Assembly (NCBI RefSeq): GCF_030388665.1
Contig: NZ_CP128846.1
Coordinates: 3,264,001-3,328,000 of the forward strand
Reading direction: 5' to 3'
DNA from: Streptomyces flavofungini
GTDB taxonomy: Bacteria > Actinomycetota > Actinomycetes > Streptomycetales > Streptomycetaceae
DNA: 64,000 nucleotides
In this document: in pieces, positions 1,552 through 64,000 of the stretch
Numbering within the stretch: the stretch's first letter is position 1
How the letters are laid out: the number at the start of each line of letters is the position of its first letter
Made by a program: the position numbers and the translations under genes
The notes under the pieces: model-generated
Told to the model about the DNA's origin: nothing
The model's database searches: none
The model's input: only the letters and a program-made list of their open reading frames with translations

Positions 1552-1989
1552 ATGTCCCTCCCCCTGACCCGCCGGATCGCCCGTGCCGCGCTGCTCGTTG
1601 CGGCAGCGGCACCCGTGGTCGGTGCGGCCGGCTCCGCCAGCGCCGCCGAGCTCCCGGCCGCCCCCGCCCTCGGCGGGGTCACCGCCCTGGACGGCGCGAA
1701 CCTGGGCGACGCCGTCGACGACACGGCCAAGAACGTCACCGACCTGGCGGGGCAGGCCGGAAGCAAGGCCGTCAAGAAGGCCGTTCCCACCGCGGGCCAG
1801 GCCCTCGGCAAGAGCGTGCGGACCACGGCGCCCGCCGCCCAGCAGGTCGGCGGCGACCTCGCCGGATCCGCCGGTGACGTCGTCGGCGACACCGCGGGCA
1901 CGGCCACCCAGGGCGGCCTGCCCACCGACGCGCTCGGCAAGGGCGCCCCGACCGGCCAGCTGCCCCTCCAGGGCCTGCCGCTCAGCTGA
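1552..1989 (+). CDS. Small secreted Ala/Gly-rich protein
   Basis: 145 residues. An ATG is preceded by GAAGGAG at about 1541. A Sec signal peptide is clear: Arg-Arg, a hydrophobic core AALLVAAAAPVVGAAG, and an SASAAE cleavage region near residue 30. The mature part is rich in Ala, Gly, Thr and Asp with heptad-like spacing (AVDDTAKNVTDLAGQAGSKAVKKA), so it is probably helical or disordered. No catalytic motif is visible. Similar Streptomyces proteins are often labelled 'ATP-binding protein' without visible basis. It is monocistronic: its own promoter region lies upstream and a strong hairpin follows at 2055-2092. Confidence 0.7.
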   Translation: MSLPLTRRIARAALLVAAAAPVVGAAGSASAAELPAAPALGGVTALDGANLGDAVDDTAKNVTDLAGQAGSKAVKKAVPTAGQALGKSVRTTAPAAQQVGGDLAGSAGDVVGDTAGTATQGGLPTDALGKGAPTGQLPLQGLPLS

Positions 1990-2054
1990 TCCACCGCGGC
2001 ACGCACGACCGATCCCACCCGCGTACGCACGCCTGATCCCCCCTCGCGTACGCC

Positions 2055-2092
2055 GAAGGGGTGCGGGAGGCCCCAGCCTCCCGCACCCCTTC
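2055..2092. terminator. Bidirectional terminator hairpin
   Basis: A perfect 17-bp stem (GAAGGGGTGCGGGAGGC and its complement) with a 4-base loop. It lies between the convergent secreted-protein gene and dapC, so it can stop transcription from both sides. Confidence 0.85.
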
Positions 2093-2138
2093 TTCGCGTC
2101 TTCGCGCTCCCGTGCCCCGGTCGCGGCCAGGACCGAGG

Positions 2139-3272
2139 TCAGCGCAGCCGCGCCACCGCCGCCGCCACCCGCTCGTCCGTCGCCGTCATGGCGACCCGGA
2201 CGAAGTCGCGCCCGGCCTCGCCGTAGAAGTCGCCGGGGGCCACCAGGATGCCGAGGGAGGCGAGGTGGGCGACCGTGTCCCAGCACGACTCGTCGCGGGT
2301 GGCCCACAGGTACAGGCTCGCCTCGCTGTGCTCGATGCGGAAGCCGTGGCCGAGGAGGGCGTCGCGCAGGGCCGTGCGGCGGGCCGCGTACCGCTCGCGC
2401 TGCTCGTGGACGTGCGCGTCGTCGCCGAGGGCGGCCACCGCCGCCGCCTGCGTCGGGGCGGACGTCATCATCCCGCCGTGCTTGCGGATCTGGAGGAGGT
2501 CGCCGAGCACGTCGGCGTCACCGGCCAGGAACGCCGCCCGGTACCCGGCGAGGTTCGAGCGCTTGGACAGCGAGTGCACCGCGAGAAGGCCCTCGAAGGA
2601 GCCGCCGCACACGTCCGGGTGCAGGACCGACGTCGGCTCCGCCTCCCAGCCCAGTTCCAGGTAGCACTCGTCGCTCGCGACCAGCACTCCGTGCTCGCGC
2701 GCCCACGCCACGACACGCGTCAGTTCGTCCTTTGACAGGACACGGCCGGTCGGGTTCGAGGGCGAGTTGAGCCAGAGCAGCTTCAGGCCCGTCGGGTCCA
2801 GTTCCGTCGGGTCGGTGTACGTGACGTGCTCCGCGCGGGCCAGGCGCGCGCCGACCTCGTACGTGGGGTAGGCGAGCCGCGGGTAGGCGACCTTGTCTCC
2901 GGGGCCGAGGCCGAGCTGGGTCGGGAGCCAGGCCACGAGTTCCTTGGAGCCGACGATCGGGAGCACGTTGCGGTGCGTGGCGCCGCGCGCGCCGAGGCGG
3001 CGGGCGCACCAGCCGGTGATGGCGTCGCGCAGCTCCGCGGTGCCCCACACCGTGGGATAGCCCGGCGAGTCGGCGGCGTCGACGAGCGCCTTCTGGATCA
3101 GGTCGGGCACGGGGTCGACCGGGGTGCCCACGGACAGGTCGACGATGCCGTCTGGGTGGGCGGCCGCCGTCGCCTTGTAGGGCTCAAGCTTGTCCCAGGG
3201 GAAGTCGGGGAGGCGGTCGCGCAGCGACGCTCCACGGGCGGTGCCGGACGGGCGGTCGGTGGCTCCAGACAC
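2139..3272 (-). CDS. dapC: Succinyldiaminopimelate transaminase
   Basis: 377 residues, a fold-type I PLP aminotransferase. The Schiff-base lysine is K237 in AVHSLSKRSNLAGYR, and the substrate/PLP motif NSPSNPTGRVLS lies near residue 169. FPWDKLEPYK near the N-terminus is characteristic of the actinobacterial DapC group. It transfers the amino group from glutamate to N-succinyl-2-amino-6-ketopimelate, the step before DapE, whose gene lies close by. The ATG at 3272 follows a terminator (3305-3349) that separates it from fdxA, so the promoter must be in the 32 bases between or read-through must occur. Other class I aminotransferases are possible, but length and context favour DapC. Confidence 0.88.
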   Translation of the reverse strand: MSGATDRPSGTARGASLRDRLPDFPWDKLEPYKATAAAHPDGIVDLSVGTPVDPVPDLIQKALVDAADSPGYPTVWGTAELRDAITGWCARRLGARGATHRNVLPIVGSKELVAWLPTQLGLGPGDKVAYPRLAYPTYEVGARLARAEHVTYTDPTELDPTGLKLLWLNSPSNPTGRVLSKDELTRVVAWAREHGVLVASDECYLELGWEAEPTSVLHPDVCGGSFEGLLAVHSLSKRSNLAGYRAAFLAGDADVLGDLLQIRKHGGMMTSAPTQAAAVAALGDDAHVHEQRERYAARRTALRDALLGHGFRIEHSEASLYLWATRDESCWDTVAHLASLGILVAPGDFYGEAGRDFVRVAMTATDERVAAAVARLR

Positions 3273-3304
3273 GGACAGGCTCCAGGGGTGTGTAGTTCGA
3301 CAAA

Positions 3305-3349
3305 CGCCCCGGTCCCGTACAGCGGAAAGAGCCGTACGGGACCGGGGCG
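3305..3349 (-). terminator. Terminator of fdxA
   Basis: A perfect 16-bp stem (CGCCCCGGTCCCGTAC and its complement) with a 13-base loop, just after the fdxA stop codon and before dapC on the same strand. It would limit read-through from the abundant ferredoxin transcript into dapC. Confidence 0.8.
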
Positions 3350-3365
3350 GCGCTCGGGCGGCCGC

Positions 3366-3686
3366 TTACTGGTTCTGCGGCGGCAGCGCGGCGATGAAGG
3401 CGTGGTCGCGCTCGATCAGGCCGAGCTTGCTGGCACCACCGGGCGAGCCGAGGTCGTCGAAGAACTCGACGTTCGCCTTGTAGTAGTCCTGCCACTCTTC
3501 AGGAGTGTCGTCTTCGTAGAAGATCGCCTCGACCGGGCAGACCGGTTCGCAGGCTCCACAGTCGACGCATTCGTCCGGGTGGATGTACAAGGACCGCTTG
3601 CCCTCGTAAATGCAGTCGACCGGGCACTCCTCGATGCAGGCCTTGTCCTTGACGTCGACACAAGGCTGCGCGATGACGTAGGTCAC
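3366..3686 (-). CDS. fdxA: 7Fe ferredoxin
   Basis: 106 residues. Eight cysteines sit in the 3Fe-4S/4Fe-4S pattern: C9 and C17 (CVDVKDKAC), C21 and C25 (ECPVDC), then C40, C43, C46 and C50 (CVDCGACEPVCP). An acidic C-terminal part (FYEDDTPEEWQDYYKANVEFF) follows, as in FdxA/FdxC of actinobacteria. It is a cytoplasmic electron carrier; partners such as cytochromes P450 or ferredoxin reductases cannot be told from the sequence. It is monocistronic with its own terminator. The ferredoxin-dapC-dapE arrangement is common in actinomycetes. Confidence 0.93.
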   Translation of the reverse strand: MTYVIAQPCVDVKDKACIEECPVDCIYEGKRSLYIHPDECVDCGACEPVCPVEAIFYEDDTPEEWQDYYKANVEFFDDLGSPGGASKLGLIERDHAFIAALPPQNQ

Positions 3687-3829
3687 GCTGTCGTTCCTCC
3701 TCGATACGGGCGTTGGCGGGCCGTCCTCAGGCTCCGCTCGCCTGGCGCGCGGGAGCGCGGCGTCGTCGATGCCCGCACCTAGTATCTCCGTTCCCGGGCA
3801 TGATCCGAACAGGAGGGGCGTACAGAGCT

Positions 3830-4876
3830 GTGGAATTCACCGCAGGCGGACGGCTAGAGGTCCGAATTACCCCATCTGACGTGGGCAAACGTGTCTCTGT
3901 CCGACGCCTGGTCGAAGGTGGGGCACCGTCACAGGAGTTCACCGACACGGTGGGCGTTCTCACATCGTGGAATGACGGTGTGCTCGTGATCACACGTCGG
4001 GACGGGGAAATCGTCCGGATCGCGCAGCGGACGCTGGTCGCGGGCAAGACCGTGCCCGCCGCGCCCGCCCGCCGGCGCGGCCCCGCGGCCACGTACGAGG
4101 AGCTGGCGCGGGTCGCCGCGCGGGCCTGGCAGCCGGTGGAGAGCGAGCGGCTCGGCGACTGGGAGCTGCGGGCCGCCGTCCAGGAGGCATCTCCCGGAGA
4201 GGCCGCGGCCGGGCGCCGGAAGGGGTTCACGCGGCGCGCCAACTCCGTGCTGCCGCTGGGGGATCCGGGGCGCCCGCTCGACGAGGCCCTCGCCCATGTG
4301 CGGCGCTGGTACGCCGACCGGGGGCTGCCCGCGTACGTGCAGACCGCGACCGGGGGCGCGGGCACGCAGGAGCGGTTGTGCGCCGAACTCGTCGAGCGGG
4401 GCTGGGAGCGGGAGGTGAGCGCCGAGCTGCGGGTGGGCGCGCTCGCGCCGGTCGGGGACCTCGGCGTGGACACCGGGCACGTGGCGCTCTCGCGGTCGGT
4501 GGGCGCGGACTGGCTCGGCCGCTACCAGCGGTCCGGGGAGGTCGGGCCGCAGGTCCTGCGGGTGCTCGGCAGCGGCCCTTCGGTGTGGTTCGCGACCGTG
4601 CCCGGCGACGGGGGGCCGCCCGCGGCGATCGGGCGGTGCGTGGTCGACGGGCGGTGGGCCGGGTTCATGGCGGTCGAGGTGGATCCGGCGCGGCGCCGCG
4701 AGGGCCTCGCGACAGCCGTGATGGCGACCCTCGCGCGCCGGGCCCTGGCGGAGGGCGCGTCGGCCGCGTGGCTCCAGGTGGAGGAGGACAACGGCGGCGC
4801 GCGGGCGCTGTACGACGGGATGGGCTTCGCGACCCATCACCACTACCACCACTACCGGGAGCCGTCCGGATCGTGA
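3830..4876 (+). CDS. GNAT-family acetyltransferase with N-terminal SH3-like domain
   Basis: 348 residues from a GTG at 3830, chosen because AGGAGGGG sits at 3811-3818 and the protein then starts VEFTAGGRLEVRITPSDVGK. An in-frame ATG at 3800 is possible. Residues 1-65 form a small beta-rich domain (VGKRVSVRRLVEG, GVLVITRRDGEIVRI). The C-terminal third is a GNAT domain with the acetyl-CoA motif RRREGLATAVM, then WLQVEEDNGGARALYDGMGF. The overall plan matches the mycobacterial Rv0428c type. The substrate is unknown. It ends in a His-rich tail (HHHYHHYREP). Confidence 0.8.
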   Translation: MEFTAGGRLEVRITPSDVGKRVSVRRLVEGGAPSQEFTDTVGVLTSWNDGVLVITRRDGEIVRIAQRTLVAGKTVPAAPARRRGPAATYEELARVAARAWQPVESERLGDWELRAAVQEASPGEAAAGRRKGFTRRANSVLPLGDPGRPLDEALAHVRRWYADRGLPAYVQTATGGAGTQERLCAELVERGWEREVSAELRVGALAPVGDLGVDTGHVALSRSVGADWLGRYQRSGEVGPQVLRVLGSGPSVWFATVPGDGGPPAAIGRCVVDGRWAGFMAVEVDPARRREGLATAVMATLARRALAEGASAAWLQVEEDNGGARALYDGMGFATHHHYHHYREPSGS

Positions 4877-5200
4877 CTCGGGGTGCCCGCGCGAGCTGTC
4901 CCGAGTGACGGAAACGACCAAGACGCGGTCGGTCCGGACGACGGAGAGTGCGGACAGCGGTCGCGGGCATGAGCGGTGCGATATGGCCACTCACCGGTGG
5001 GGGCGACGCTTACGGCTAAGGTCCCCCGGGAATTTGCCTCACCGGCAACACGACGGGGGAAATCGCACGACCGTTCGATCACGGGCTCCAGGGGCGCCGC
5101 CGACCACGGCGCCCCGGCGACCGCACCACCGGCAACCGCACCACGGATGAACCCGACCGGAGAGTCCCACCGGTGCCAGACAGAAACGACAGAGGCACGG
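4877..5200. other. Intergenic region, nothing convincing
   Basis: The stretch between the GNAT gene and the first SirB1 paralogue holds short open frames from GTG/ATG codons (for example at 4905 and 4976). Their composition is Arg/Thr/Pro-rich and shows no recognisable protein. No strong hairpin or promoter was seen. Confidence 0.3.
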
Positions 5201-6055
5201 ATGCGCGCACAGCCCGCGAAGTCCAGTGAATGGCGGCGCAGGTTCGCCGACGAGGCCAGGTCCGAGCGGCCCGACCTGTCCCTGCTGTGCCTGCTGCTGA
5301 GCGGGGAGGCGGACCCGGAGCTGGACGAGGCGGGCATCGACGCGGCGCAGGTCGAGCTGGACAAGCTCGCCGGGCAGCTGCCCTTTCGCCCCGGCGGGCC
5401 CCGCGCTTGGGCGGCCGCGACCGCCGAGCTCCTGGGCGGCCAGCACGGTTTCCACGGCAGCCCGCCGGACTACCAGCGCCTGGAGTCGTCCCTGCTCCAC
5501 CAGGTCCTGCGGCACAGGCGCGGCCTGCCGATCCTGCTCTCCGTGGTCTGGATCGAGGTCGCACGGCGGGCCGGGGCGCCGGTGTACGGCGTGGCGCTGC
5601 CCGGCCACTTCGTCGTCGGCTTCGGCTCCCCCGACGCGTACGGCAAGCCGGGGCAGGTGCTCGCCGACCCGTTCAACGGCGGTCGGCTGCTGTCCACCGA
5701 GGACGCCGAGCAGCTGGTGGCGCAGGCCTCGGGCGGCAGACTGAACCCCTCGCTCCTGTCGGCGGCCGCCCCCCTGAACATCATGCTGCGCATCCTCAAC
5801 AACATCCGCGCCTGGGCCGCCGCCCGCTCCGAACGCTCCCACGTGGCGCTGTGGGCCCTGGAGCTGTCCCTCCTGCTGCCCTCGCACCCGGCCAGGCTCC
5901 GCTACGAACGCGCCCAATTGCTCGTCGAGCGCGGCGACTTCCTCGCGGGCGCGCGGGACCTCGACGAGTACGCCGACGTGGTGGCGTCGATCGAGCCGAC
6001 GACGGCGGACCGGGTGCGCCTGGAGGCGCGGGCGGCGCGGGCCAAGCTGAACTAG
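5201..6055 (+). CDS. SirB1/transglutaminase-like protein with TPR-like tail, copy 1
   Basis: 284 residues from an ATG at 5201; longer starts upstream are open but lack homology-like sequence. The core is SSLLHQVLRHRRGLPILLSVVWIEVARRAG, then GVALPGHFVVGF, the signature of the SirB1 (transglutaminase-like core 2) family. The catalytic cysteine of true transglutaminases is not obvious. The C-terminal 90 residues (RILNNIRAWAAARSE, ALELSLLLPSHPARL) are helical and TPR-like. The exact role is unknown. A close paralogue follows at 6231, and the cores of the two are nearly identical at DNA level, which indicates tandem duplication. Confidence 0.75.
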   Translation: MRAQPAKSSEWRRRFADEARSERPDLSLLCLLLSGEADPELDEAGIDAAQVELDKLAGQLPFRPGGPRAWAAATAELLGGQHGFHGSPPDYQRLESSLLHQVLRHRRGLPILLSVVWIEVARRAGAPVYGVALPGHFVVGFGSPDAYGKPGQVLADPFNGGRLLSTEDAEQLVAQASGGRLNPSLLSAAAPLNIMLRILNNIRAWAAARSERSHVALWALELSLLLPSHPARLRYERAQLLVERGDFLAGARDLDEYADVVASIEPTTADRVRLEARAARAKLN

Positions 6056-6093
6056 GAGCCGGCCGGGGGCGCGGTGCGGTCGGCGCCGGGGTC

Positions 6094-6144
6094 CGCCGAG
6101 CGTTCGTATACGCCGAGCGTCGGTATGCGCCGAGCGTTCGTATG
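6094..6144 (+). repeat. Three tandem 17-bp repeats
   Basis: Three contiguous copies of a 17-base unit (CGCCGAGCGTTCGTATG and variants) at 6094-6110, 6111-6127 and 6128-6144, in the gap between the two SirB1 paralogues and upstream of the second. They could be an operator array or a replication-slippage product. Confidence 0.7.
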
Positions 6145-6230
6145 CGATGACCTCAGGCGGTGTCCGTACGCGATGTGCTTGGCCCGCGCACGGACCGGTA
6201 GCGATCGGTCCGGGCGGGCACCACCGACGT

Positions 6231-7079
6231 ATGCATCCCCGACCCGCCCGGACCACGCCGTGGCGCCGGGCCTTCGCAGCCGAGGCCAGGGCCGAGCGGC
6301 CCGACCTCGCGCGGCTGTGCCTGCTGATCGGCACGGAGGCCGACCCCGCCCTCGACGACCTGGGCATGGCGGCGGCGCGGCGGCGCCTGGACCGGCTCGC
6401 GGCCCTGCTGCCCGCCGGTCCCTGCTGCCCGCGCGCGTGGGCGGCCGCCGTCGGTGAACTCCTCGGCGTGCGCTGCGGGTTCGGCGGCCGCCCCGGCGAC
6501 TACCAGCGCCTGGAGTCGTCGCTGCTCCACCAGGTCCTGCGGCGCGGGCGCGGCCTGCCGATCCTGCTCTCCGTCGTCTGGATCGAGGTCGCACGGCGGG
6601 CCGGGGCGCCCGTCCACGGCGTGGCCCTGCCCGGCCACTTCGTCGTCGGCTTCGGCCCGCACGACGCGTACGAGAGATGCGTACTGGCCAATCCCTTCGA
6701 CGGCGGACGGGTCCTGAGCACCCTGGACGCGCAGCTGATGGTCGCCGGGGCCACCGGGGCACCGCTCGACCCCTCGATGCTGCGGCCCGCGGGCACGCTG
6801 GACATCGTGCGGCGCATCCTCAACAACGTCCGCGCCTGGGCCGCCGCCCGCCCCGAGCGCGCCGACGTCGCCCTGTGGGCCGTGGATCTCGCCCTGCTCC
6901 TGCCCGCGCACGAGGACCGGCTGCACTACGACCGGGCCCAGCTCCTCGTCCGGCTCGGCGACTTCCGCACCGGCGCCGCCGAACTCGACACCTACGCCGA
7001 GGCTCTGGCCGCCGACGACGCGGAGGCGGCGGACCGGGTGCGCAGACAGGCGAGCGCGGCGCGGGCGCGGCTCAACTGA
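6231..7079 (+). CDS. SirB1/transglutaminase-like protein with TPR-like tail, copy 2
   Basis: 282 residues from an ATG at 6231 (MHPRPARTTPWRR). It has the same architecture as the gene at 5201: the core LSVVWIEVARRAGAPVHGVA followed by LPGHFVVGFGPHDAY, and a helical tail (RILNNVRAWAAARPE). Stretches of more than 40 bases in the core are almost identical between the copies, while the N-termini and the 660-720 base region differ, for example DAYERCVLANPFDGG against DAYGKPGQVLADPFNGG. Either the duplication is recent or the core is kept alike by gene conversion. Function is unknown. It is probably separately expressed, because 175 bases and a repeat array lie upstream. Confidence 0.75.
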   Translation: MHPRPARTTPWRRAFAAEARAERPDLARLCLLIGTEADPALDDLGMAAARRRLDRLAALLPAGPCCPRAWAAAVGELLGVRCGFGGRPGDYQRLESSLLHQVLRRGRGLPILLSVVWIEVARRAGAPVHGVALPGHFVVGFGPHDAYERCVLANPFDGGRVLSTLDAQLMVAGATGAPLDPSMLRPAGTLDIVRRILNNVRAWAAARPERADVALWAVDLALLLPAHEDRLHYDRAQLLVRLGDFRTGAAELDTYAEALAADDAEAADRVRRQASAARARLN

Positions 7080-54141: not shown

Positions 54142-55362
54142 ATGCGTGTGACAGGGACGACGGTGCGGGCGGTCAACGGACTCACCTCGCGGTGGGCGCG
54201 GGACCTGCGGGACGGCGAGGTGCGGGGCGGCACGGCGTTCTCCGCGGCGGGGGTCTGGCCGCTCCTCGCGTTCCTGGCGGACGGCGCGGGCGGCCCGGCC
54301 CGCGCGGAACTCGGCGAGGCGGTCGGGCTGCCGCCGGAGCGGGCGGCGGAGGCGGCGCGGGAGCTGCTTGCCGCCCTCGACGCGATCCCCGGTGTCGGCG
54401 CCGCCATCGGGCTCTGGACGAAACGGACCCTGACACTGCGCGAGCGGTGGGCCGAGGGCCTGCCCCCGGGCGCTCGCGGCGTGCTGACCGGGGACGTGAG
54501 CCACGACCAGGCCGCGCTCGACGCCTGGACCGCGAAGCACACCGACGGACAGATCGAGCGGATGCCGGCCGCGGTGGGCGAGGACGCCGAGCTGGCCCTC
54601 GCGGGTGCCCTCGCCCTGCGCACGACGTGGCTGCGCCCCTTCTCCAAGAGCGGTATGACGCCCGAGACCGGTCCTTGGCGCGACCTCGACCTGATCGCCC
54701 TGCACCGGTCCAGCAGCCTGCCCGACCGCGTGGGCGTCGCCGCCACCCCCGCGGGGTGGCTCACCGAACTGCGCGTCCTCGGCGACACCGGCGTCGACGT
54801 GCATCTGCTGCTCGGCGAGGACGGGATGGCCCCGGGGCAGGTGCTCGCCGGCGGCGTCGGCGGCGTCGGCCGCGCCTGGCCGCGCGTGCCGGGCACCCAC
54901 CTGCCGTACGGCGCACCGGGCCCCGGCCTGACCGTCCGAAGGGAGCGCTACGAGAGCCCGCTGCCCCCGCAACTGCACGTCACGACCGTGCCGTTCACCG
55001 TCGCCGCCCAGCACGACCTGACCGCGCGGAGCGACCTGTTCGGCCTGACCACCGCCATGGACGACAGCTTCGGCCACTTCCCCCAAGTCGCCGTCGAACC
55101 GCTCGCGGTGGGCAGGGCCGCGCAGGCGGCCACCGCGACCTTCGGGGAGCTGGGCTTCCGGGCGGCGGCGGCCACGGTCGTCGAGGGGCTCGCCGGCTCG
55201 GCCCCCAGGCTGCGCTACTCCGTCACGGAGATCGACGCCACCTTCGACCGGCCCTTCGGGTTCCTCGCCGTGCACCGCCGGACGCGCCTCGTCCTCGCGG
55301 CCGGCTGGGTCGGTGACCCGGAGCCGGTCCACGAGGACGAGGATGAAGAGGTGTGGCAGTGA
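54142..55362 (+). CDS. Serpin-family protease inhibitor
   Basis: 406 residues, the usual serpin size, with no signal peptide. The C-terminal signature FDRPFGFLAVHRRTRLVLAA followed by GWVGDP matches the serpin ending (F-x-x-x-x-P-F-x-F-x-I ... G-R-V). A short Ala-rich hinge FRAAAATVVEGLAG stands before the presumed reactive-centre loop. The N-terminal FSAAGVWPLLAFLADGAGGP matches serpin FSPxSI...LxxL. It is convergent with a secreted subtilisin-like protease gene, its likely target type. Prokaryotic serpins are uncommon and this one is divergent, so inhibitor function is inferred. Confidence 0.75.
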   Translation: MRVTGTTVRAVNGLTSRWARDLRDGEVRGGTAFSAAGVWPLLAFLADGAGGPARAELGEAVGLPPERAAEAARELLAALDAIPGVGAAIGLWTKRTLTLRERWAEGLPPGARGVLTGDVSHDQAALDAWTAKHTDGQIERMPAAVGEDAELALAGALALRTTWLRPFSKSGMTPETGPWRDLDLIALHRSSSLPDRVGVAATPAGWLTELRVLGDTGVDVHLLLGEDGMAPGQVLAGGVGGVGRAWPRVPGTHLPYGAPGPGLTVRRERYESPLPPQLHVTTVPFTVAAQHDLTARSDLFGLTTAMDDSFGHFPQVAVEPLAVGRAAQAATATFGELGFRAAAATVVEGLAGSAPRLRYSVTEIDATFDRPFGFLAVHRRTRLVLAAGWVGDPEPVHEDEDEEVWQ

Positions 55363-55447: not shown

Positions 55448-57031
55448 TCAGAACTGCAGGCCCCAGGAGTCGAGGGTGCCGACGTCCTGGGACGCGTTGT
55501 CGGTGACCCGGAGCTTCCAGGTGCCGTTGGCCGTCTCCGAGGAGGCGTTCACCGTGTACGAGGTGTTGATGTCGTCCGAGCTGCCGCCGACGCCGAAGTC
55601 CTTGAGGACGTAGGCGGAGCCGTCGGGGGCGACGAGTTCGACCTTCAGGTCACCGATGTACGTGTGCTTGATGGCGACCGGGACGCTGAGCGCCGAGGGA
55701 GCGTTGCCGGGGACGCCGGTGACGGTCACCGGGGACTCGACGGTGGAGTGGTCGGTGATCGCGAAGTCCGCGCCGTTCTCGAACTTCGGTCCGGGCGGGT
55801 TGGTGCCGCCCGTGCCCACGTAGAGCAGGCGGTTGGGCGAGCCGCTGCCGGGGCTGCCGACGACGTTCGGCGTGGCGGCGGTCGTCAGGGCCGTGGAGAC
55901 CTGCGCCGGGGTGGCCGACGGGTTCTCCGCGACGTACAGGGCCGCGGCGCCCGCGACGTGCGGGGACGCCATCGACGTACCGGAGATCGTGTTGGTCGCC
56001 GTGTCGTTGGTGTTCCACGTCGACGTGATGCCGGAACCGGGGGCGAACAGGTCGAGGACCGTGCCGAAGTTGGAGTAGCTGGCCTTGGCGTCGGTGTTGG
56101 TGGTGGCGCCGACGGTGATTGCCTCGGTGACGCGTGCGGGCGAGCGGGTGCTGGCGTTGGTGCTCTCGTTGCCCGCGGCGACGGCGTAGGTGATGCCGGC
56201 GGCTATGGAGTTGCGGACGGCGGTGTCGAGCGCGCTGTCGGCCGGGCCGCCGAGGCTCATGTTGGCGACGGCGGGCTTGGTGGCGTTGCGCGTCACCCAG
56301 TCGATGCCCGCGACGACCTGCGCGGTGGTGCCCGAGCCCGAGTTGTTGAGCACGCGGACGCCGACGATCCTGGCCTTCTTGGCGACGCCGTGCGCGGTGC
56401 CGCCGACGGTCCCGGCGACGTGCGTGCCGTGGCCGTGGCCGTCCTGTGCGACGTTGTCGTTGTCGATGGCGTCGAAGCCGTCGACGGCGCGGCCGCCGAA
56501 GTCCCGGTGACTCTTGCGGACACCGGTGTCGATGACGTAGACGGTGGCGCCCTCACCGGCCTTGTCCGGGTAGGTGTACTTCTGGTCGAGAGGGAGGTTG
56601 CGCTGGTCGATGCGGTCCAAACCCCACGACGGCGGGTTGGGCTGGGTCGCGGCGACCGTGTACGTGCGGTTCTGCACGACGGAGGCGACGGCCGGGTCGG
56701 CGGCGAACCTCTTCGCCTCGGCCTCGGACGCCTGCACCTCGTAGCCGTTCAGGACCTTCTTGTACGTCCGCTCGATCTCGGCGCCGTGCTTCTTCGCGAG
56801 CGCCTTGCCGGCGGGTGAGTCCGCCTTGGGGGCGTCCGCGTCGAGGGTGACGATGTAGCTGTTCGCGATCGAGCCGGGTGCGTCCGCGTACTGGATCCGG
56901 CCTTCCGCTGCCTTCGGCTGCGCGCTCGCGGGGAGCGCGGCGACGACTCCGAGGGCGACGGCGGTGGCGGCGGTGAGGGCGAGGGTGCCCGTACCGGCCA
57001 GTCTTCGGCGGGGGTGACGCATCACTGCCAT
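55448..57031 (-). CDS. Secreted S8 subtilisin-like protease with I9 propeptide and P-domain
   Basis: 527 residues from the ATG at 57031 with GAGGAGG upstream. The signal peptide contains LALTAATAVALGVVAALPAS. The propeptide inhibitor I9 has SYIVTLDADAPKADSPAGKA. The catalytic triad lies in VYVIDTGVRKSH (Asp), GHGTHVAGTVGG (His) and SGTSMASPHVAGAAA (Ser), the proteinase K/aqualysin group. The C-terminal P-domain (HTYIGDLKVELVAPDGSAYV, TANGTWKLRVTDNASQDVGT) ends in LDSWGLQF. It is exported as a zymogen. The convergent serpin could protect the cytoplasm from misdirected enzyme. Confidence 0.93.
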   Translation of the reverse strand: MAVMRHPRRRLAGTGTLALTAATAVALGVVAALPASAQPKAAEGRIQYADAPGSIANSYIVTLDADAPKADSPAGKALAKKHGAEIERTYKKVLNGYEVQASEAEAKRFAADPAVASVVQNRTYTVAATQPNPPSWGLDRIDQRNLPLDQKYTYPDKAGEGATVYVIDTGVRKSHRDFGGRAVDGFDAIDNDNVAQDGHGHGTHVAGTVGGTAHGVAKKARIVGVRVLNNSGSGTTAQVVAGIDWVTRNATKPAVANMSLGGPADSALDTAVRNSIAAGITYAVAAGNESTNASTRSPARVTEAITVGATTNTDAKASYSNFGTVLDLFAPGSGITSTWNTNDTATNTISGTSMASPHVAGAAALYVAENPSATPAQVSTALTTAATPNVVGSPGSGSPNRLLYVGTGGTNPPGPKFENGADFAITDHSTVESPVTVTGVPGNAPSALSVPVAIKHTYIGDLKVELVAPDGSAYVLKDFGVGGSSDDINTSYTVNASSETANGTWKLRVTDNASQDVGTLDSWGLQF

Positions 57032-57439
57032 CTGAGGGGTCCTCCTCAATCGGTGGTGCGCTGGTGGGGGATGCGACAAGGGCATGACAATGTTCGGCCG
57101 ACATGTGCACGCCGTGCTGATCAATGTTCAACTCCCTGTCGCCGACGAAAGATTGACGGATCCACAGGAAACCCACAAGGGCGGTGTTCGGACGTAACAC
57201 GACTGCCACGCACCGGCCATGACATGGCCGCAATAATCCGTGCATTCCCCCCGTAACAGTGGAGTGGCACGTGGGGCGGGGTGGCACCCCCGGACTGCGG
57301 CTTCCACGAGACGGAGGGGGCGGGCGCGTGGTGTTGGCGGGATTTCAGCCACCATCGATTTCCCCGGGGCGGGGTGGGCGGGGGCGGCACAGGGGTGCGG
57401 CTGGGCCGGGAGCCGCCCCGTGCGGCCCCCGGGACGCGG
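57032..57439. other. Gap between MarR gene end and protease gene start
   Basis: Upstream region of the protease gene. It has no convincing gene. The stretch 57060-57250 is somewhat less GC-rich and holds the expected promoter on the reverse strand; the stretch 57270-57439 is G-rich and holds imperfect hairpins near the MarR stop (for example CCGGGAGCCGCCCC near 57405). Confidence 0.3.
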
Positions 57440-60217: not shown

Positions 60218-60799
60218 ATGACCGCACTACCCGACTGGATGCGCCCGCCGCGCGCGGAAGGCTGGTTCGCGGAGGACCTCGACCGCCTCCCCGAGGCGCC
60301 TCGCCACACCGAGCTGATCGACGGAGCGCTCGTCTTCATGATGTCCCCGCAGCGTGCCTGGCACGGCCGTCTCGTCACTACCCTGACCACCACGCTCATG
60401 GCGCAGGCACCGGTCGGCTTCGAGGTCGAGCGGGGGATGACGATCCGCCTCGACGCCCGCAACCGTCCCGAGCCGGACCTCCTGCTGACGAACCTGTCCT
60501 ACGACCCCGACCGCACCTGGTACGCACCTGAGGACGTGCAGCTCGTCGTGGAGGCCGTTTCACCGGAGTCCGCACATCGCGATCGCACAGTGAAGCTCCG
60601 CAAGTACGCGGAGGCCGGCATCCCCCACTACTGGTGCATCGAGGACGAGGGCGGGTCGCCCGTCGTGCACGTCTACGAGCTCGACGAGCCGACCGGCGCC
60701 TACGCCCCCGCCGGAATCTTCCGGGGCACCCTCCAGCGCCCGGTGCCCTTCGAGATCAGCCTGGATCTCGACAAGCTCACACCGCCGCACAACAGCTGA
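60218..60799 (+). CDS. Uma2-family (DUF820) PD-(D/E)XK nuclease-like protein
   Basis: 193 residues. The Uma2 core has RTELIDGALVFMMSPQRAWH-like sequence at residues 28-48, RNRPEPDLLLTNLSYDP, VQLVVEAVSPESAHRDRTVK and YAEAGIPHYWCIED, giving the D...E...K active-site pattern. The start at 60218 lacks a clear ribosome site. It is a distant relative of the protein at 24578. It borders the ychF-associated element remnant. Confidence 0.82.
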   Translation: MTALPDWMRPPRAEGWFAEDLDRLPEAPRHTELIDGALVFMMSPQRAWHGRLVTTLTTTLMAQAPVGFEVERGMTIRLDARNRPEPDLLLTNLSYDPDRTWYAPEDVQLVVEAVSPESAHRDRTVKLRKYAEAGIPHYWCIEDEGGSPVVHVYELDEPTGAYAPAGIFRGTLQRPVPFEISLDLDKLTPPHNS

Positions 60800-60911
60800 G
60801 GTCAGCACCACGTCAGCACGGGAACGCGGAAGGGGTCGGACTCGCCAGAGCCCAACCTCTTCTGACCTGCGTACGCAGCGCAGTTACCGCATGTGGAGCG
60901 ACGAATCGACT

Positions 60912-60937
60912 ACACGTTGAACCGGAACTCGACCACA
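60912..60937 (-). repeat. Duplicate of the ychF 3' end, candidate attachment-site copy
   Basis: Twenty-five of 26 bases match 63137-63162, the end of ychF. On the reverse strand the copy reads VVEFRFNV and then TAG, whereas ychF itself ends VVEFRFNV TGA. The only mismatch is a silent G/C change. Integrases often recombine into the 3' end of a conserved gene and restore its end, which would leave this scar. Confidence 0.75.
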
Positions 60938-60965
60938 AGGCTCTGACCTGCGGAAATGCGGGCGC

Positions 60966-60986
60966 ATCCCAGCACCATCCCAGCAC
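60966..60986 (+). repeat. Direct repeats ATCCCAGCAC, left group
   Basis: Two copies (60966-60975 and 60977-60986), followed by GGGA as in the right-hand copy at 63037. They resemble arm-type integrase sites in number and spacing. Confidence 0.6.
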
Positions 60987-61249
60987 GGGATTCACTGCAA
61001 GGTACAAGAGGGCTCCGGGCCGCCAACGCTACACAACCCGGTCGACCCACGAACTGAGACCCGAAGGACGGGACTGCTCCACTACGCTGGTGGCCGGGTC
61101 GCACTCCCCAGCCCCCGCGCCTCACCGACCACGGGGGCAAGGCGGGCACGATCAGCATCGCGGCCGCAGGCACATCGACACCGGTCGCTCGCTCGCGCGA
61201 CCGCCATGAAGGCTCGGCAGGTGTACCGCTGGCACGCCATTCTGTTGTC

Positions 61250-61873
61250 ATGACGCACTCCGGCCAGGACAACCCAGCAAGGATCACAGCGGTGACACGG
61301 CGCGATGTCTTCGACTTGCTACGCGCTGCGGAGGGCGGCTGGTGGGGACGCCTGGACGAGGTCGCCTTCCTGGGCAGCCTGTACGACCTGGATGCCCTCC
61401 CATCAACCGACTCGCGCCACCCGACCGCCCGCACCGACATCATCCAGCACCGGTTCAACAACTATGACTGGGAGGACGATTGGGTCTTCGAGGACTCACG
61501 GTTTGGACTCCTCAATGGTCCGGACGAGGTACTGCTGGCATTCCTCGCACGGCTGGTACATCCCGAGGTACGCCCCGACGCCGACGAGGCGGCCAGGCGC
61601 GTCGATGAGCTGAACCGGCTTCTGGCAGCGGATGGCTGGGCGCTGCGCCCTCGAGACTTCGTGACCGGGCGGCCCGTCTATGCGCCGTTCCCAGAAAGCA
61701 TCGTCACTCCGACGATCCCATTGCCGCTCAGGGACGACGACGCCAGCAAGCTCGATCTCGTCCTCGGACAGACCCACCATCTGCTCGACGACGACGGCGA
61801 AGGGTTGGCTCGGGACCTCGTCCGCTCGGCGAAGCTCACCCTGCGCCGCGACGGTGGGTATTTCCATCCGATG
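61250..61873 (+). pseudogene. AbiJ-NTD3-type abortive-infection gene, truncated
   Basis: The reading frame from ATG 61250 encodes ITAVTRRDVFDLLRAAEGGW, then GRLDEVAFLGSLYDLDALPS, the turn PTARTDIIQHRFNNYDWEDD and LAADGWALRPRDFVTGRPVY, the pattern I recognise as the AbiJ N-terminal domain 3 group of phage-defence proteins. A following segment, LDLVLGQTHHLLDDDGEGLA and KLTLRRDGGYFHPM, continues naturally to about 61873. After that point the frame turns into Pro/Arg-rich shadow sequence, and the expected effector half is missing. So it is probably inactive. Confidence 0.6.
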
Positions 61874-61874
61874 A

Positions 61875-62170
61875 AGCTTCCCCCGCTTCGACTACACCCC
61901 CTCCAGCCGCCTGCGTTTCATACTCCGCGGCGGCAGCCCGCACCGCGCCAGCGAATGGGCCGACCTCGCCGACCGGCCTCTGGAGGAACAACTCGCCGGG
62001 ATCGTGCAAGAGGTCGGCCTCCGCGGCGAAGCCACGGAGCGCAAACGCCTTGCAGACCAGAAAGCCAGAGAGGAAGAGCGGAAGCGCTGGGAAGCCGCCA
62101 TGCAGGAAGCCCGCGCCGCCTACGCCCACGCCTACCGCGTCAAACACCTTGGAGAACAGAAAAGCAGAAA
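61875..62170 (+). pseudogene. Fragment of an unrelated gene C-terminal region
   Basis: One frame off from the AbiJ fragment, right after a TGA at 61872, the sequence reads SFPRFDYTPSSRLRFILRGG, then SEWADLADRPLEEQLAGIVQ and KAREEERKRWEAAMQEARAA. This is the C-terminal half of a family with a DYTPSGRL motif and a Glu/Arg-rich helix, as I remember from hypothetical proteins of mobile regions. It has no start and runs without its own stop into the antisense of the PIN toxin gene. Confidence 0.5.
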
Positions 62171-62185
62171 GCGGACCAGGGGAAA

Positions 62186-62599
62186 TCACACCACCACGAG
62201 CCGGACCCGCTCGCCGCACAGCTTGCCCATGTCGTCCATATCGGAAGTCAGCATGACCACGGGGCGGCGCTGTCGCAGCGCGGCCTCGGCAACGGCCGCA
62301 TCGATCGCGTACTTGTGTCCGTGCAAGCCGACATTCATCAGCAACTTCGAGGCAGCCCTCGCCTCCTCGTCACCCACCGGAACTACGCGCAGCCCGGAGA
62401 GCACCCAGTTCAGGCGGGACTTGTTCGTACGGGCATGGACGGCCTCGATGATGGTGAGCGCACTGATCACGACCTCCATGCCGCGCGACCGCGCCTCGGC
62501 GATCAGGGCCACCACCTGCTCTTCGTCAGCGAGCAGCTTCGAGAGTCCCTCGCTGTCGAGGACCAGCGTCCCCTCGTGACTCAGCCTGCGGCGGGCCAC
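62186..62599 (-). CDS. PIN-domain toxin (VapC-like)
   Basis: 137 residues from a GTG at 62599 that overlaps the antitoxin gene by 19 bases. Acidic PIN positions are visible: Asp in TLVLDSEGLSKLL, Glu in SALTIIEAVHAR, Asp in YAIDAAVAEAAL and Asp in VVMLTSDMDDMGKLC. It is a complete, probably active ribonuclease toxin. It lies inside the element remnant and convergent with the decayed gene fragments. Confidence 0.85.
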   Translation of the reverse strand: MARRRLSHEGTLVLDSEGLSKLLADEEQVVALIAEARSRGMEVVISALTIIEAVHARTNKSRLNWVLSGLRVVPVGDEEARAASKLLMNVGLHGHKYAIDAAVAEAALRQRRPVVMLTSDMDDMGKLCGERVRLVVV

Positions 62600-62865
62600 T
62601 CCGCCTCCTCGGCGAACACCTCGTCGAAGACCTGCCGCGCCCGCTGACGAGCCGGCTCGGAGACCGGCCCTTTGCGGCTCTCGTAGTCCGCCAGGTACTC
62701 GTCCAGGACCTGCCCGCGCAGCTCACGCTCGACCGCCTCGGCGATGAACGCGGAGAACTCCCGCTTGCCCACCCGAGCCCGGATCGCCTCCGCGGTCCCC
62801 TCCGGCAGCGACAGGCTCACCCGCGTCGCCGGCCCTTCGCCGATGCTGTACGTCGCCTCACCCAT
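62581..62865 (-). CDS. Antitoxin partner of the PIN toxin
   Basis: 94 residues from an ATG at 62865. RVSLSLPEGTAEAIRARVGK and REFSAFIAEAVERELRGQVL form a ribbon-helix-helix (CopG/VapB-like) domain, and the tail (ARQRARQVFDEVFAEEAEWP) is the likely toxin-binding helix. It is co-transcribed with the toxin. Confidence 0.85.
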   Translation of the reverse strand: MGEATYSIGEGPATRVSLSLPEGTAEAIRARVGKREFSAFIAEAVERELRGQVLDEYLADYESRKGPVSEPARQRARQVFDEVFAEEAEWPAAG

Positions 62866-62946
62866 GCCCCCGATTGTGTCAAACGAGTAGGAAAAGCGCC
62901 ACGTCCGCACTGCCTTCACAGCTCGGTCAGCGCCCCGCTCGCACAA

Positions 62947-63046
62947 ATCCCAGCACGGGCACCCCCGTCCCATCCCGACACGATCCCAGCACGATACGGA
63001 TGACCAGGGATGACGACAGGTGACGAGGGATCAGCTATCCCAGCAC
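62947..63046 (+). repeat. Direct repeats ATCCCAGCAC, right group
   Basis: Copies at 62947-62956, 62983-62992 and 63037-63046, plus a degenerate ATCCCGACAC at 62972-62981. TCTGACCTGC follows at 63087-63096. Together with 60966-60986 they bracket the AbiJ/VapBC segment. Confidence 0.6.
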
Positions 63047-63134
63047 GGGAAAAACAAAGGGCCCGACCCCGAAGAGTCGGACCCCATCTGACCTGCACGT
63101 TTGCCAGATCAGCGACGTGGTGTCATGTCACCCG

Positions 63135-64000
<866 letters not shown>

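Follow-up and report, generated by a model that had tools for sequence, protein, structure and literature searches.

The 2.2 kb of DNA between two copies of a short core at ychF is, on comparison of its sequence with other Streptomyces loci, probably a decayed member of a set of integrase-less defence integrative cassettes that occupy the 3' end of this gene, with a helper integrase presumed to have served them. The reading of the ychF 3' end as an attachment site is sound. The features of the locus, which lies at the right-hand edge of the window (the whole 64-kb stretch of DNA analysed), are listed in Table 1.

The duplicated core and its uninterrupted counterpart

Table 1. Features of the ychF locus in the window
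Feature	Position	Strand	Evidence
ychF 3' part, gene runs off the window	63135..64000	-	ends VVEFRFNV-stop
Proximal core, attachment-site half joined to the ychF body	63137..63162	.	repeat, pattern and genome searches
ychF-proximal element end ("N end")	62947..63136	.	repeats at 62947, 62983, 63037
Terminator-like stretch (by eye) in the N end	63056-63086		followed by TCTGACCTGC at 63087
Antitoxin-like gene, 94 aa as in S. noursei	62581..62865	-	without Pfam match
PIN-domain (VapC-like) toxin gene	62186..62599	-	PF01850, E 1e-4, 23.3 bits against a cut-off of 23.6
Gene remnant (485 aa in S. noursei)	61882..62159	+	91% to L193 (reverse complement) 5988-6265
AbiJ_NTD3 gene, 5' part, shorter than that of S. 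noursei	61250..61866	+	PF18860, E 1e-50; 61185-61873 95% to L193
Distal element end ("D end")	60938..60990	.	TCTGACCTGC at 60942, repeat doublet 60966-60990
Distal core, copy of the ychF 3' end	60912..60937	.	repeat, pattern and genome searches
Left flank, with the look of an older N-type end	60803..60911	.	GTCAGCAC-type repeats, TCTGACCTGC; counterpart directly adjoins ychF in G018, G004
Uma2-family gene in the left flank	60218..60799	+	PF05685

The repeat search (family D9) recovers the duplicated 26-nt ychF 3' end of the preliminary description, 96% identical with one mismatch. The shared reading also holds: the minus-strand frame over the left copy (60910-61461) ends VVEFRFNV-stop, as does ychF. 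A 19-nt core pattern allowing up to three mismatches matches the window at these two cores only, and shuffled windows give a mean of 0.03 matches (maximum 1), so that a chance origin is indeed not credible. Searched against the window's own genome at E <= 0.001, the right-hand site (97 nt) matches only itself and the left copy. The 26-bp repeat is real, but its extent had been drawn too narrowly, as 60830-60870 and 63056-63096 are 71% alike (family D5) and repeats flank both cores. These repeats, of the ATCCCAGCAC type, lie inside both element ends, and a terminator-like stretch (by eye) followed by TCTGACCTGC stands to the left of each core. The 13-nt repeat pattern with 2 mismatches has 6 window matches against 3.25 expected; single repeats being short, the weight rests on doublets and their spacing. 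A partial duplication of ychF or a chance likeness, with no mobile element at all, would suit a high-identity repeat of only 26 bp; it is scarcely conceivable beside the shuffles and the recurrence of the site with integrases, prophages and end repeats, and the integrase-bearing elements at ychF, described below, already rule it out.

Between the cores, the "defence-type gene pieces" reported earlier come down to an AbiJ_NTD3 reading frame and the tail of another gene. The toxin-antitoxin pair stands, with a PIN toxin scoring just under the Pfam cut-off, and our searches likewise found no integrase between the cores. A Pfam scan of the element's frames recognised only AbiJ_NTD3 and PIN, and no traB or replication gene.

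The uninterrupted site was found in genome G018, where the counterpart of the window's left flank (60803-60911 with the Uma2 gene) is joined to ychF by a single core. Identity to the window is 626/698 on the left and 725/798 on the right, and the locus has no match to the 2.2-kb insert at E <= 1e-3. A similar junction occurs in G004 (587/694 left, 731/797 right), with two small matches to the insert, of 50 and 33 nt. Given this junction in G018, and similarly in G004, the core is the point at which the 2.2 kb was either gained or lost. Two observations named beforehand as contrary to an element, both copies persisting in element-free relatives and a left copy within a normal conserved gene, were not made: G018 has one core, and no such gene was recognised at the left copy. 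The proposal that the ychF 3' end acts as attB is thus borne out by the single core of G018, and by integrase genes beside ychF-type cores elsewhere.

The window's left flank itself looks like an older element-like end. The Uma2 gene stands beside ychF in G018 and G004, near ychF in G017 and beside an integrase-bearing end in locus L143; together with the older N-type end it may be the mark of an earlier integration. The N flank as native DNA downstream of ychF was dropped as a general rule, the flanks in L004-L044 being heterogeneous.

Elements at ychF across Streptomyces

Elements at the ychF site occur in many Streptomyces and have two kinds of end, both with ATCCCAGCAC-type repeats at near-fixed spacing; in the fetched loci alike ends surround differing cargo. 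A 23-nt core pattern (up to 2 mismatches) is present at least once in 372 of 392 genomes of the genus, one genome per species, and a reversed control pattern gave 0 matches in the same table. At least two cores were counted by hand in 32/392 genomes, 29 of them with two on one strand; such paired cores are not always close or on one contig, the two of G288 lying on different contigs. Scanning the contigs of 84,980 species genomes for the exact repeat doublet yielded 80 doublets in 78 named stretches, all titled Streptomyces. Distal doublets account for 25 of the 80 (14 at 54 nt and 11 at 55 nt from the core start) and proximal doublets for 41, of which 35 lie 111 or 112 nt from the core. The 26-nt core (up to 6 mismatches) is absent beside 14/80, one being the integrase-bearing L143; in seven of the 13 others (L154, L156, L169, L175, L195, L198 and L207) a shorter core comes after an N end. 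On reading these loci, an integrase-type distal end comes next in six, L195 being ambiguous, and this succession in the six is, as judged from the sequence, a tandem junction.

Regarding the gene itself, 105/105 distinct ychF 3' ends read EFRFNV-stop (TAG 64, TGA 25, TAA 16), the count taking only ends with a readable EFRF or VEFR. The core covers only one base of the stop codon; the other two belong to the element side, and each element type therefore provides a working stop. A D-end pattern with a 5-nt spacer matched 27/392 genomes; it misses the 4-nt form of the window and likely includes chance matches at 3 mismatches, and was not used as a count. In IMG/VR, searched with exact patterns only, one contig carries an integrase-type distal end and none a cassette N end.

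Integrase genes next to ychF 3' ends, which the preliminary description had proposed to look for, were found adjoining ychF-type cores in other genomes. Streptomyces sp. 15-116A (L143) carries a distal end with the same repeats and, immediately inward of it, a 416-aa tyrosine integrase (PF00589) and a 60-aa HTH_17 protein that may be excisionase-like. Relatives of this int143 type (E <= 1e-40) occur in 54/392 genomes. None at that threshold is present in the window's genome, whose 12 PF00589 matches resemble the int143 protein at only 26-45% over 43-143 aa. Using a 14-nt pattern with up to 3 mismatches, we placed a ychF-type core at most 900 nt from the stop of the integrase gene in 17/30 loci (at most 200 nt in 13 of them) and found none in that range in the remaining 13/30. 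In integrase-bearing elements the integrase is mostly located just inside the distal end. Both cores are present in 5/11 fetched integrase loci (L251, L252, L253, L259 and L261), islands with cores 12-17 kb apart and ychF at the proximal one, and several of the fetched loci have type I RM-like frames (by eye).

Prophages use the same site. Two of about 55 kb were identified, one in S. albospinus (G203; cores at 1045 and 56003 of the joined stretch) and one in G169 (cores at 288 and 55985). PHROGs recognises a terminase and a portal in each of them, and in G203 it also names head, tape-measure and tail proteins. Among the best phages listed, the G203 terminase is 83-84% identical to those of Sitrop, phiCAM and others, and its major head protein 76-80% identical to those of phiScoe10, phiCAM, Joe and others. 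Phages of the Sitrop/phiCAM/Joe type are known to use serine integrases. The G203 prophage (L262-L264) has phiCAM/Joe-like structural genes, yet a tyrosine integrase beside the ychF core, which suggests an integrase swap. Among known phages and plasmids, none was found to carry the integrase at an identity of 60% or more. Of 147 genomes of the order, five matched, all within the same genus.

A second tyrosine integrase family, int291, is about 27% identical to the int143 type and also found at the ychF core. It occurs in 18/392 genomes, with the core close to the integrase stop (~114 nt) in 11/18 loci. Int291 (L053:317-1432; L093-L105) was considered as the cassette integrase and rejected, as flanks and distal ends (L116, G291) differ from the cassette ends; the G291 element carries relaxase-like frames (by eye). 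Clustering of repeat type on the integrase tree is loose, and a hand count of the integrase family in 5/20 cassette genomes against 49/372 others reveals no clear link.

Cassettes without an integrase

Fifteen two-core cassettes of 1.8-18.1 kb were assembled, from the window, G131, G216, G307, G142, G384, G323, G239, G271, G052, G389, G175, A1277, S. noursei and G291. A sixteenth searched cassette, the 27-kb element of G013, has a distal core too changed to detect. A six-frame search with a profile of 22 integrases (rows L222, L233 and L234 left out), which detected 4/4 controls, found no integrase trace in 15/16 cassettes (1.8-27 kb); the one exception is the remnant detected in G271 (E 5e-13), the best E value among the other cassettes being 1.8. 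To the right of the 25 named distal ends no integrase was found in a total of 98.5 kb of sequence, three of the ends having less than 600 nt. In a tree of distal ends (~105 nt, one quick method; the L213 and L235 integrases left out), the 15 cassettes separate from 18 integrase-bearing or prophage ends with an SH-like support of 1.0 and shared indels; these 18 include one identical pair and one pair from a single genome. The distance from core to repeat is also shorter in cassette distal ends than in the integrase-bearing ends observed. With no integrase in 15/16 cassettes or, as far as the sequence reaches, beside any of the 25 named distal ends, and with the cassette distal ends in a single clade, the absence of this gene looks ancestral to the cassette set and not local; the earlier suggestion that this element "later lost" its integration genes appears not quite accurate. 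In the tree of proximal ends (n=25; a short alignment, one quick method), three prophages and 14 cassettes, G271 not among them, are set apart from the other ends (support 0.815).

The same evidence bears on independent decay, in which there would be no integrase-less lineage and each cassette would go back to its own prophage or island, reduced by loss of the integrase to cargo and ends. Decay is visible in the window relative to S. noursei, integrase fragments occur in G203 (L122), in S. iranensis L175 and in L169, L192 and L198, and passages of PMC9513070 give a precedent of AICE decay with repeats left. This explanation is nevertheless unlikely, given the common grouping of the 15 distal ends with shared indels apart from the 18 integrase-bearing ones, the lack of a remnant in 15/16 cassettes, and the enclosure of unrelated cargo by like ends.

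Distal ends of the 15 cassettes are pairwise 64-99% alike, and proximal ends 79-94% among ten of the 15. Proximal ends of G216, G142, G239 and G052 are diverged (63-80%), and that of G271, an int291-type end, is 56-63% alike to the others. The window N end is 79-86% alike to nine others, and less alike than the window ychF to most of them. Left flanks of the distal cores are mostly 56-72% alike between carriers, the more alike pairs being G323/S. noursei (86%), G131/G271 (75%) and G216/G291 (73%). Many interiors share nothing; type I RM genes are common to G131, G384, G323 and G389, and the window and S. noursei share interior genes. G175 and G389 have N ends 94% alike, ychF 88% and interiors 0%.

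Such values could be thought to reflect homologous exchange, the cassettes moving through ychF and the shared ends by ordinary recombination and the cores being fossils. N ends and ychF do offer homology on one side, some pairs (G175/G389) have N ends more alike than ychF, a few left flanks are alike too, and no helper for these exact ends was found. We consider this distinctly unlikely, as with most left flanks only ~56-72% alike one side is usually without homology; the near-fixed repeat spacing and the position of the G018 junction at the core also argue against it.

An element of the cis-mobilisable kind, taking its integrase from a neighbour or helper, would fit these observations best. 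The recombination of an attP, made of N end, core and D end, with ychF would have been carried out by a tyrosine integrase like those of Streptomyces sp. 15-116A and the S. albospinus prophage. The cassette may use the integrase of an element integrated beside it (in cis, by accretion) or, alternatively, one supplied from elsewhere in the cell (in trans), and would persist because of its cargo. A more specific version can be offered only tentatively: the cassettes might be minimal defence satellites without integrase, combining imitation of an attP with anti-phage cargo and riding the tyrosine integrase of ychF-site phages or islands, so that the phage's integrase would spread anti-phage systems.

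Cargo, the window copy and related systems

The recognised cassette cargo is largely defence, namely type I RM, Pgl/BREX, AbiD, AbiJ and PIN toxins. PADLOC and Pfam identify type I RM in G323 and G175, and also in G131, G384 and G389. The G013 element carries PglW, PglX, PglZ, BrxD and BrxHI, G080 (proximal end not reached) DruE-like and NsnC proteins, G271 AbiD/Abi_2, and G052 a DUF234 ATPase matching PDC-S27; CHAT, PIN and ParE domains are also present among the cassettes. Cargo without defence recognition includes AAA and radical-SAM genes in G291 and a transposase. Among 81 ORFs of the 15 cassettes (L130:8548-8844 and L052:2372-3328, of 83, left out, and G291 frames crossing the stretch border absent), PIN is the commonest domain (10), followed by HsdM and HsdR domains (5 each), among the 25 families listed of 56. 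PHROGs on these 81 ORFs, three of them from the window, named no structural protein among the 25 families listed of 72. In G013 (L045, L046), the 27-kb Pgl/BREX type 2 set has ychF on one side and a window-like toxin-antitoxin cassette on the other, beyond which comes a Uma2 gene.

S. noursei A-2-1 (L193) has a 6.5-kb version of the window element at ychF, with genes for AbiJ_NTD3, DUF488/HTH, proteins of 347 and 485 aa (without Pfam match), a PIN-like toxin and an antitoxin. The window keeps the two pieces given in Table 1 and the part from 62171 onward (86%), and lacks ~3.4 kb and ~0.5 kb, about 3.9 kb of cargo. Its proximal doublet (63037) is down to one repeat, where many aligned relatives have two. 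Judged against S. noursei and the others, the local losses of the window are thus cargo and half a repeat doublet. The window copy is most likely a stranded remnant and probably no longer mobile, since its genome has only distant integrases and half the proximal doublet and ~3.9 kb of cargo are lost. The four-gene set of L193 (AbiJ_NTD3, DUF488/HTH, 347-aa and 485-aa genes; reverse complement 1841-6583) is possibly an undescribed defence system. Many named loci also contain DNA of its 485-aa gene and of the PIN pair.

CIMEs are an established concept, as are accretion and the decay of AICEs. CIMEs are defined, in passages of PMC5704250, as lacking integration and transfer genes and keeping both attachment sites, with tandems with integrase-bearing elements possible; they include TR1 of pathogenic Streptomyces (TR1/TR2 in PMC8369830). 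Like TR1 and the streptococcal CIMEs, the window element has both cores with end sequences, and no integration or transfer genes were found in it. It differs in its site at the ychF 3' end, in recognised cargo that is largely anti-phage, in ends resembling those of prophages and islands, and in that the cassettes are one distal-end clade recurring with unrelated cargo in many species. As to the ICE/IME-derived origin of CIMEs, the N ends group with prophage ends (the 0.815 support of the short alignment), and no ICE parent was seen. Decayed AICEs with cargo and direct repeats, a lost or broken integrase and several elements per site are described in passages of PMC9513070, which mention 14 insertions in protein-coding genes. 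Cargo and direct repeats without an intact integrase are likewise found at ychF; in contrast to AICEs, the window element has no recognised traB, replication gene or integrase, and the ychF integrase family also occurs in prophages. The cassettes also resemble PICI/P4-like satellites in being small integrated anti-phage islands whose attachment site is common with prophages. Such phage satellites and defence islands are known to encode their own integrase and helper-hijacking genes, whereas no integrase was found between the window cores.

A literature search of openly licensed full texts found no report of the ychF 3' end as a Streptomyces attB, in agreement with the preliminary description, which knew of none. 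The pneumococcal prophage group PPH005 has its attachment site beside ychF, with attB between a DUF951 gene and ychF according to part of PMC8637289; its core sequence is unlike the Streptomyces ychF core and its attB position differs. A satellite prophage upstream of ychF is described in a passage of PMC10383233. In Actinobacteria, 2.0% of detected defence systems were reported to lie in prophages and 3.4% on plasmids (PMC10482375).

If the preferred reading of integrase-less cassettes is true, the ychF 3' end would be a frequent site of integration and accretion for Streptomyces phage defence, common to prophages, integrase-bearing islands and integrase-less cassettes. With the repeat and core signature, cassettes can be located that have no integrase gene and escape integrase-based searches. 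The reading also raises the question of whether defence genes travel on att-only elements driven by the integrases of competing phages. Elsewhere in the window, the adjacent frames 54142-55362 (+) and 55448-57124 (-) appear by eye to be serpin-like and secreted-subtilase-like, respectively.
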